64,000 nt of DNA from Proteinivorax hydrogeniformans. GTDB lineage: Bacteria > Bacillota > Proteinivoracia > Proteinivoracales > Proteinivoracaceae. Position numbers and translations under genes: made by a program. The stretch is taken from contig NZ_CP159485.1 of assembly GCF_040515995.1 (NCBI RefSeq), positions 2,728,001 to 2,792,000 of the forward strand, read 5' to 3'. Shown here one piece after another: positions 55,366 through 57,744 of this stretch (the stretch's first letter is position 1; each line of letters opens with the position of its first letter). The notes under the pieces are model-generated. The model was not told where the DNA came from. It searched no databases and was given only the letters and a program-made list of their open reading frames with translations.

Positions 55366-56265
55366 TTATTTGGCATTTTGAAGAGCTTTTTGGGCAAGCT
55401 CTTTTGCCCCTTTTAGAGTTTTTGAAGCAGCAAAGAAAAGGCCTGTATGGCAGAAAATAGCGTCACTAACTCCTGAAAGATTAGCAAGCTCTTGGTTTTC
55501 TTTTCCCGCCCATTTTCTAGGAAGCTGCATTCTATCCTTTTTATCCTTTCCCCTTACAGTTTGGAGGGCATACCTATTATTATCCGGATATATCGCTAGC
55601 ATAACCTCCTCCTCTTCGTCGATATCGATTATTGTTTCCTGCCAAGGACAGTTTACATCTAGCACTAAAATATTAGGATTTTCCCTACGTGTAAAAGCGT
55701 TGATAACCTCATCTCTTCCCTTTAAAACCCCAAAGCTTTGGGATATAGTGTTCTTTAATACCTGCGAGCAGACCCTTACCCCGTTGTAAAAGGCAGCATC
55801 TTCGCTCTCAGCAGAGTACCAAGGTGGATTAAACCCTGACAACATTGCTGATATGTTCATAAGACGAAAAGTTTCGTTTTCAGGCCTTATTCCGTTATCT
55901 AGTGCATCGATCCCTGTTATTAACACTTTATCCACATGCTGATGTGCCGACTGAATCTCTTCTTTAGTTAAGGAACCATCAAATGCCCTGATCACTTCAT
56001 AACCATACTCTCGCCAAATCAGACCGCTAGCTGCATAAGGAATTTCATCACTCCGATACTCTTTGTCCTCGCCATGATGGTCAAACTTTCCTCCGCCTAC
56101 GTCATAAACTATATCTAACTTCTCTAGAGTATCAGGATCCCTCGTTCTTACAACTTCTATATCAAATATCTGCTGCAATATTGCTGTTGCCATTAGTTCA
56201 TCTGCATGAAATCTGCCGTCGTGTGTGCCGACTTTTTTATATGGTTTTGTGTTTATTTTAATCAC
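55366..56265 (-). CDS. MYG1-like DHH-superfamily hydrolase (UPF0160)
   Basis: 299 aa, MIKINTKPYKKVGTHDGRFHADELMATAIL with the THDGxFHADE metal motif, DVGGGKFDHHGEDKEYRS, and LDNGIRPENETFR. Family: MYG1, in eukaryotes a 3'-5' RNA exonuclease; bacterial members are uncharacterised. C-terminal part YDNNRYALQTVRG and HTGLFFAASKTLKGA is conserved. Monocistronic. Confidence 0.88.
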   Translation of the reverse strand: MIKINTKPYKKVGTHDGRFHADELMATAILQQIFDIEVVRTRDPDTLEKLDIVYDVGGGKFDHHGEDKEYRSDEIPYAASGLIWREYGYEVIRAFDGSLTKEEIQSAHQHVDKVLITGIDALDNGIRPENETFRLMNISAMLSGFNPPWYSAESEDAAFYNGVRVCSQVLKNTISQSFGVLKGRDEVINAFTRRENPNILVLDVNCPWQETIIDIDEEEEVMLAIYPDNNRYALQTVRGKDKKDRMQLPRKWAGKENQELANLSGVSDAIFCHTGLFFAASKTLKGAKELAQKALQNAK

Positions 56266-56361: not shown

Positions 56362-56819
56362 AATCGAGTAGGAGGCGGTGACTAACCGCCGTCCTCTCAC
56401 ACCACCATGCATACGGACCCGTACACAGCGGTTCGATAGGTTTAAGCGGTACTATGACTTGAACTGACTTCTGAGTGTTCAGCTATATCTCTCGATATAG
56501 GTTACTAAGAGAGAAAATTCCATTCTCTTGCAGTAGCATGCCACTCAGACCTCCCCAGGTAAGCACGTTAACCTTCCTCCCATATATCTGCCACATTTAC
56601 TCCTTAGGATTCGGGTAGTGTTGGACTTTGTTTTGTTAGGCAAACTCGTCCGTCCTAAGCAAGCCTTATATGTGGTTTGTGTTCCTCAGACCGGGATTTT
56701 GCCTAGGGCTTCCTTCAGATTCCACCTCACGGTGGACACCCTTGCCTTCGACTAGTGGTTCCCACTACCAAGTCCACAGCGGACTTTCACCGCCAAGTTA
56801 ACGCACATGCTGGACGCAC
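56362..56819 (-). mobile_element. Group IIC intron without an encoded reverse transcriptase
   Basis: About 458 nt on the minus strand, starting GTGCGTCCAGCATG (5' end at 56819). It has the group IIC conserved series: GGTGAAAGTCC, AAGGGTGTCC, GGAATCTGAAGGAAGC, CGGTCTGAGGAACAC, GACGAGTTTGCC, AACAAAACAAAGTCC, ACCTGGGGAGGTCTG, then GAAGTCAG and GTCATAGTACC (domain III). Domain V-VI follows at once (GAACCGCTGTGTACGGG, ATGGTGGTGTGAGAGGACGG) and ends CTCCTACTCGATT. The reverse transcriptase normally in domain IV is absent. It sits 6 bases after the terminator hairpin at 56825-56850, the usual insertion place of class C introns. Confidence 0.9.
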
Positions 56820-56824
56820 CTAGA

Positions 56825-56850
56825 AAAGAGACAGCTTTCACTGTCTCTTT
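56825..56850 (-). terminator. Terminator after the hydrolase gene, intron target
   Basis: Perfect 10-bp stem AAAGAGACAG/CTGTCTCTTT with a 6-nt loop; U-rich end TTTTCTA runs into the group IIC intron. Confidence 0.85.
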
Positions 56851-56865
56851 CTTAAAGCCTGCTTT

Positions 56866-57744
56866 TTAGTTGGATAAAAAGTTATCTACACGTTCTTTAA
56901 TATATGCATTTCTTTTTTCTGATAATGAATAAAAATGACTACAATCTTTAAGTAAATGTGCTTCTACGTTAGGGAATAACTTTTTAGCCCTTTTAACCAC
57001 TTTCTCTGCTGGAAAAACCGGATCTTTTTTGCCGGCAAACAGCAATATAGGAGAGTTGAAAGTCTTACACTCTTTTGCTTTAACTTTATTAGGAAACTGC
57101 ATGTTCGTTTTTACATAGTCAAAGCATAGACGATTCATATCTAGGGTGTTTTGGTCAATATTTTCAGTATCATTTACCATTGCATTAAGTGCCTTTTCAA
57201 GATAGGTGTCTTTTTTAGTGGTTGTGTATAACAATTTTGAGATACTCATCTTAATCAAAAATTTCTTTGATACATTTTTAAAACCTGCTGGAACAAACAA
57301 GACTGCTTTAGAAATCTTTTCTGGAGCCACACACATAAGTTTAGTTAAAATCCCCCCACCAAAGGACTCTCCCATGCAAGCTACTTGACTAAAACCTAAG
57401 GAATCTATAACATCAGAAGCCCACTGACCATATTCGTGCGTCTTATGGGATAAAATGCGCTGCTCACTTTTCCCAGGTTGCCCTATGGTGTCAACAGCAT
57501 AAACTAGATAGTCTTTTAGTAAACCCTCGTTTTGCTTTAATGAATGAGCTGCAGTGCCGTTGTTTCTATGAAAAAACAATATAGGCTTTGCATCTTTTCT
57601 GCCTGACTTTAAAACATGGGTTTTGCCAAACCTTGTATCCACATATATATCTTCGCAGTCTAACTTTAGATTTTTAACTTGTCTGTTGTAAAACTCTTTT
57701 ATTTCTTTTTCTCCATCTGAGGTTGTGTAAATACCACTACTCAA
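56866..57744 (-). CDS. Alpha/beta hydrolase
   Basis: 292 aa. Motifs: LFFHRNNGTAA (oxyanion region), DTIGQPGKSEQR, nucleophile elbow GESFGGG (Ser about 129), Asp in GKKDPVFPAE and His in KDCSHFYS. No signal peptide. The family is generic (CarE/carboxylesterase and similar), substrate unknown. Convergent neighbour is the intron. Confidence 0.82.
   Translation of the reverse strand: MSSGIYTTSDGEKEIKEFYNRQVKNLKLDCEDIYVDTRFGKTHVLKSGRKDAKPILFFHRNNGTAAHSLKQNEGLLKDYLVYAVDTIGQPGKSEQRILSHKTHEYGQWASDVIDSLGFSQVACMGESFGGGILTKLMCVAPEKISKAVLFVPAGFKNVSKKFLIKMSISKLLYTTTKKDTYLEKALNAMVNDTENIDQNTLDMNRLCFDYVKTNMQFPNKVKAKECKTFNSPILLFAGKKDPVFPAEKVVKRAKKLFPNVEAHLLKDCSHFYSLSEKRNAYIKERVDNFLSN

Follow-up and report, generated by a model that had tools for sequence, protein, structure and literature searches.

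The locus and its intron

The window, a stretch of 64,000 nucleotides from the Proteinivorax hydrogeniformans genome, carries a group IIC intron that lacks a reverse transcriptase (RT), located on the minus strand behind a terminator and between an alpha/beta hydrolase gene and a MYG1-family gene (Table 1).

Table 1. Features of the intron and its surroundings, in window coordinates
Feature	Position	Strand	Basis
Upstream alpha/beta hydrolase gene, to which the terminator belongs by position	56866..57744	-	ORF list, gene comparison
Terminator stem in the 5' flank, 12 bp, GAAA loop, IIC insertion landmark	56824..56851	-	Fold
CTAG separating stem and intron, putative IBS1 place	56820..56823	-	Sequence
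RT-less group IIC intron, whole, 457 nt	56363..56819	-	Rfam matches, end sequences, domain V-VI model
Domain I (nt 1-263), resembling RT-bearing introns of the same family (G002, G004)	56557..56819	-	Identities, trees, site switch
Interval containing the apparent mosaic switch point (nt 263-274)	56546..56557	-	Informative sites
Domains II-III and start of IV (nt 274-370), resembling RT-less introns of another family	56450..56546	-	Identities, trees
Single remaining TATCGAA at the 189-nt domain IV deletion	56432..56438	-	Comparison with L001
Domains V and VI	56363..56433	-	Model R1, 85.9 bits
MYG1-family gene, downstream of the intron	55366..56265	-	ORF list, gene comparison

Two Rfam families match the intron on the minus strand above their gathering scores, RF02001 (156.1 bits, window 56736-56564) and RF01998 (38 bits, window 56504-56391), and together identify a IIC-type domain I and core. 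The intron begins with GTGCG at 56819 and finishes with CTACTCGAT at 56363. Of the consensus quoted for the ends of IIC introns, GUNYGCCNRGCAUGG and CCUACYCGAU (PMC4028801), the 3' part fits the window copy, while the 5' end, GTGCGTCCAGCATGT, is off at two positions, one of them in the window copy alone. The ORF list contains no frame of at least 50 amino acids within the intron.

In the general Rfam model for domains V-VI, RF00029, no copy from this genome is listed at E<=1 or at E<=5; the scan at E<=5 does report the domains V-VI of four IIC introns from elsewhere (44.5-47.7 bits). Because of this result, a IIC-specific covariance model (R1) was built from 19 domain V-VI sequences, all from other genomes. 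R1 scores window 56433-56363 at 85.9 bits (E 8.5e-18), with zero non-standard pairs, and its top copies in other genomes reach 94.8 bits. A domain V that does not fit in a covariance search, named beforehand as the observation that would speak against the intron, is literally what RF00029 returns and not what the IIC-specific R1 returns. Surveys that start from RF00029 may overlook introns such as these. With the RF02001, RF01998 and R1 matches, the lack of an ORF and the terminator stem, the element is confirmed as an ORF-less group IIC intron behind a terminator, as originally described, and its length, then put at about 458 nt, measures 457 nt.

The strands of the terminator stem (56851-56840 paired with 56835-56824) end 4 nt before the intron. 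The distance of six bases given earlier is correct when counted from the 9-bp inner stem AAGAGACAG/CTGTCTCTT. By eye, the stems before the two other copies in this genome, L001 and L003, are similar. A mir-128 match over the terminator (18 bits) is below its gathering score and was taken as chance. In the congener G001, the gene order hydrolase, MYG1, S9 peptidase is the same, and the matching locus (L167) yielded no intron motif. The window copy was either inserted after the species split from G001 or lost in G001, and the empty site supports insertion.

Copies in the genome and the search for a reverse transcriptase

The P. hydrogeniformans genome is closed in one contig of 2,833,627 bases. 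It contains three RF02001 matches and three domains V-VI, the latter with the same R1 score, and all three copies, which are 98-99% alike over their overlaps, are RT-less. The longest is L001 (2370609-2371256, plus strand; 646 nt). Relative to L001, 189 nt of domain IV are missing from the window copy, exactly between the TATCGAA at L001 nt 382 and that at nt 571, so that two such motifs in L001 correspond to a single one in the window copy. L003 (577395, plus strand) is without 182 nt that reach from the last part of domain I across domains II-III into the beginning of IV. Between L001 and the window copy there are five differences in nt 1-382 and none in the tail; between L001 and L003 there are five in nt 1-212 and three in the last 245, with the deletion edge counted. 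An intron-pattern search of the genome gave 13 places, three of them exact and identical with the three introns; the other ten had two mismatches each and were not counted as introns.

Neither PF00078 nor PF08388 has a match in this genome. A profile of three class C RTs found one trace only, a fragment of 46-52 codons with a TAG at 1830217-1830354, located after a sortase-like gene, and no significant intron sequence lies near it (best blastn E 0.24). Among the 15 genomes searched, the same profile had a hit in 14 and none in G003; in G095, the sole hit falls in a 929-aa frame of another kind. A hidden full-length copy was therefore rejected on the combined Pfam, Rfam, RT profile, pattern and R1 searches of the genome record, which could lack a plasmid. 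The preliminary description had the window intron depend on an RT from another copy; the genome search for a full-length copy does not bear this out, as all three copies are RT-less and the only RT trace is a fossil. A related RT in the same genome, as expected for mobilization in trans, is thus absent from P. hydrogeniformans and present in, for example, G129 and G080.

An RT-less lineage and its domain IV relic

The stretch of about 180 nt in domain IV of L001 that is absent from the window copy is the decayed N-terminus of an RT. L001 and its homologues are thus ORF-less introns with an RT remnant in domain IV, and the remnant is gone from the window copy. Homologous relics occur in RT-less introns of G129, G095, G208, G211, Thermoanaerobacter wiegelii (L083) and a Clostridia MAG (L082, L084), with more distant homologues in G103, G136, G071 (two copies) and G317. 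The seven complete introns are of nearly constant size (L001, 646 nt; G129, 650; G103, 655; G136, 650; G071, 649 and 649; G317, 648), and introns of this build, at 646-655 nt, are present in three host families besides that of L001. The remaining copies are incomplete, being cut at the 5' side (T. wiegelii, G095), at the 3' side (G129b, G211) or by contig ends (G208 and the MAG). The view that the RT was deleted from the window copy itself needs revision: the loss is older than that and extends to introns in other families, and another 189 nt of domain IV went missing from the window copy afterwards. An RT deletion that was recent and confined to the window copy was also rejected on the likeness of its domains II-III, described below.

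In G136 and G103, the relic is still readable as protein (QLLERGYLLENRLETDDKRQECLV and similar), and the other relics align to it. These alignments have E values of 1e-4 to 1e-8 among families f11 and f18, and of 0.017 to 0.07 for G000 and most of f67, for which the likeness taken alone is weak. In alignment A2, read partly by eye, a stop falls at the same codon in six of eight sequences (TAG in f1 and f67, TAA in f18). By eye, the nucleotide stretch of the relic also opens the domain IV frame of the RT-bearing introns L013, L099 and L100. The relic also appears to fold: over eight sequences, 93.6% of cells are paired and 21 of 39 pairs have changed on both sides, with 0 of 500 shuffles as high, for a structure derived from the same eight related sequences, of two clades, on which it was scored. 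Slid controls gave 30-46% paired, and further pair types were not above shuffles (380/500). The relic is mostly untranslatable, yet its modelled fold is conserved across families with compensatory changes.

A fixed-gap pattern for the lineage occurred in 11 of 398 genomes. Since the reversed control matched about as often (14), it was used for candidates only. Reading of the sequences assigned seven candidates to the L001 lineage; G197 and G314 resembled the G080 kind described below, and G042 and G084 belonged to neither. Plasmid and phage collections held no record covering 80% of the intron. Exact domain V patterns had no hits in genome_contigs or viral_contigs, and a domain IV pattern matched three stretches of genome_contigs and nothing in viral_contigs. 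A 49-core tree neither recovered nor rejected one clade of the ten RT-less rows (p-AU 0.4), on a labelling in which the G080 copies, called RT-bearing through their RT N-terminal relic, were reset as short by domain V distance, the 3'-cut rows G129b, AS04 and G211 were set as short for their domain IV relic and five rows were left unlabelled.

A second, separate RT-less kind is found in G080. It is 662 nt long, has nine copies with an RT N-terminal hit, and keeps the start of the RT up to GQGSGL, breaking where the local RT continues with MEQVV. In L046 (G080:C1:2163500-2168200), four of these 662-nt introns stand head to tail with 0 bases between them (reverse-strand starts 1079, 1741, 2403 and 3065), as if one terminator site had served for every new copy. 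A head-to-tail arrangement with no spacer is also seen for RT-bearing IIC introns in L100 (G243; reverse-strand 1433-1504). Elsewhere in G080 (L047, G080:C1:1072000-1076500), an RT-bearing full-length intron starts at 854, about 100 nt after CRISPR-DR32-like repeats (200-755) that score below the gathering threshold. The RT-less introns of L071 (G129) and L091 (G211) are cut at the same point of the relic and continue, by eye, into a frame resembling the start of a transposase. The short IIC introns of L023 (G018; 440 nt) and L024 (G045; 508 nt) have different domain IV contents, so the RT has been lost more than once.

Apparent mosaic structure of the intron

The two halves of the 5' part of L001 have different closest relatives. 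In nt 1-274, L001 shows 93% identity to the RT-bearing G002 intron, which comes from its own family, and 87% to the RT-less intron of G129; in nt 275-370, the values are 55% and 76%. The RT-less intron of G129 behaves likewise towards the RT-bearing intron of the same genome (96% and 59% over the two regions), and the RT-bearing introns of G002 and G129 are 88% and 86% identical to each other. Trees were computed for 18 rows picked from the 49, with 275 columns for domain I and 88 for domains II-III. In the domain I tree, the P. hydrogeniformans copies and the RT-bearing introns of their family form one group (100/99), and holding the RT-less introns together is rejected (p-AU 0.009). In the domains II-III tree, it is the RT-less introns that form one group (100/99), and grouping of the f67 RT-less introns with the f67 RT-bearing ones is rejected (p 0.002). 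From these comparisons, the window intron appears to be a mosaic of an own-family domain I and domains II-III like those of the RT-less introns of another family.

An RT-bearing IIC intron of the genus could have lost its RT within this genome, with plain ribozyme ancestry accounting for the likeness to introns elsewhere. Such an origin would agree with the 92-93% identity of domain I to own-family RT-bearing introns and with the RT fossil, and introns made RT-less locally are clear in other genomes, for example G080. It is nevertheless unlikely, since domains II-III are only 54-55% identical to those of own-family RT-bearing introns against 76% to those of the RT-less introns of another family, their grouping with the former is rejected (AU p 0.003), and the relic in domain IV has its match in RT-less introns elsewhere, including a stop at the same codon.

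In both the P. hydrogeniformans copies and f67, the informative sites change side between nt 263 and 274. With a cut at nt 270, chosen after inspection of the sites, 15 of 19 sites in the P. hydrogeniformans copies are host-like before the cut and 19 of 20 are RT-less-like after it (p 2e-6); in f67, the counts are 20 of 26 and 18 of 18 (p 1.6e-7). This pattern bears on a further possibility, that there was no recombination and that in one vertical RT-less line domain I converged on the helper under selection for recognition by the RT. Domain I does carry the EBS loops, which the protein grips in the IIC structure (PMC10190682). We regard convergence as improbable all the same, because the host likeness takes in almost the whole of domain I (93% in f1, 96% in G129) and ends sharply at nt 263-274, as expected of an exchange rather than of site-by-site selection.

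Retention of the RT-less copies by the host for a function, for instance as structured RNA behind terminators, would fit the survival of all three domain V-VI copies with equal scores and the conserved domain IV fold, but is highly improbable given that two of the three copies each carry a separate large deletion, which in one of them takes away domains II-III, and that the window site is empty in G001.

Domains V-VI fit this pattern less simply. They are common to the RT-bearing (L053) and RT-less introns of G129, perhaps through exchange in the other direction, and the RT-bearing introns of G002 and G211 have a different domain VI. No helper whose domain I matches was found for the f11 and f18 introns.

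Proposed origin

The window intron is probably a decayed copy of a non-autonomous group IIC retroelement that was spread in trans by a resident helper and had taken its domain I from that helper. The RT-less element would have been inserted behind terminators, as is usual for IIC introns, with an RT supplied by a resident G002-type autonomous intron. The domain I match suggests an exchange with a resident class C RT intron, which may have occurred by recombination between gene copies or by a change of template by the RT after the 3' part of the RT-less RNA had been copied. The helper, reconstructed from a neighbour genome and from a fossil of about 50 codons without an adjoining intron, would since have decayed to that fossil at 1830217-1830354.

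In the reported E. rectale IIC complex, domain IVa forms the arm that binds the protein with high affinity, the EBS loops are held by the protein, and a stem of about 12 bp is present in the DNA target (PMC10190682). By analogy, the predicted fold of L001 contains a putative IVa-like protein-binding arm. The window copy is without the 3' strand of this presumed RT-binding arm and, on the same analogy, should for that reason neither recruit the protein nor move, so that hydrolytic splicing would be the most it retains. The IIC ribozyme of Thermoanaerobacter is described as splicing by hydrolysis without protein in vitro, whereas the protein is required for the branched product and mobility (PMC7161350). 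The preliminary description, in stating that splicing requires an RT, was therefore too strong.

A wider proposal is offered tentatively, and we would not yet rely on it. The RT-less IIC lineage may be long-lived and persist across families as a parasite of resident autonomous introns that repeatedly swaps in the domain I of the local helper, the domain of target pairing and of part of the protein contact, and keeps its own domains II-IV together with the folded RT relic as a protein-binding arm. The swap would occur most simply by template switching of the helper RT near the conserved GGGGAGGTCT junction, and in P. hydrogeniformans the lineage would have outlived its helper.

Comparison with known systems

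That RT-less introns are moved in trans is already known. The ORF-less introns of Thermosynechococcus elongatus are reported to derive from one deletion and to have proliferated in trans (PMC2882425). Their TeI3 introns (CL/IIB1), driven by TeI4 proteins, resemble the present lineage in the single RT deletion, the RT remnants in domain IV, the covariation in domain IVa and the proliferation in trans; they differ in being IIB introns of one genome with the helpers present, whereas the present lineage consists of IIC introns behind terminators in several families, with the presumed helper gone here and domain I apparently exchanged with it (PMC2882425). A 2015 review describes bacterial ORF-less introns as rare and nearly always accompanied by a related intron that may provide its protein, with C.te.I1 of Clostridium tetani as the sole exception (PMC4424553). 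Like the introns described here, C.te.I1 is ORF-less in a genome without a related protein; as described, however, it is a robust self-splicer, while P. hydrogeniformans has three IIC copies, two of them with large deletions, and an RT fossil (PMC4424553). The present analysis adds to that picture a multi-copy IIC case in a genome without an RT protein and an RT-less line of near-constant size in several host families. Ta.it.I1 of Thermoanaerobacter italicus is likewise of class IIC but is autonomous and RT-bearing (PMC7161350); going by its description, it may be a candidate for the type of helper used by the Thermoanaerobacter RT-less introns. ORF-less introns were counted in a 2022 survey in which T. 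wiegelii is among the intron-rich genomes (PMC8919778), and mobilization in trans of ORF-less phage introns was suggested in a 2025 paper (PMC12350094). No earlier report of this RT-less lineage or of the domain I exchange was found in the open-access literature covered by the searches.

SINE elements are driven by the proteins of LINE elements, and the non-autonomous element resembles its helper in one part. The comparison with the present lineage is one of analogy only, the part shared by the lineage and its presumed helper being the 5' ribozyme domain. If the exchange of domain I holds, non-autonomous introns survive by adopting the recognition domain of the resident helper, which would give SINE/LINE parasitism a counterpart in bacteria that can be tested, and RT-less introns a route across host families.
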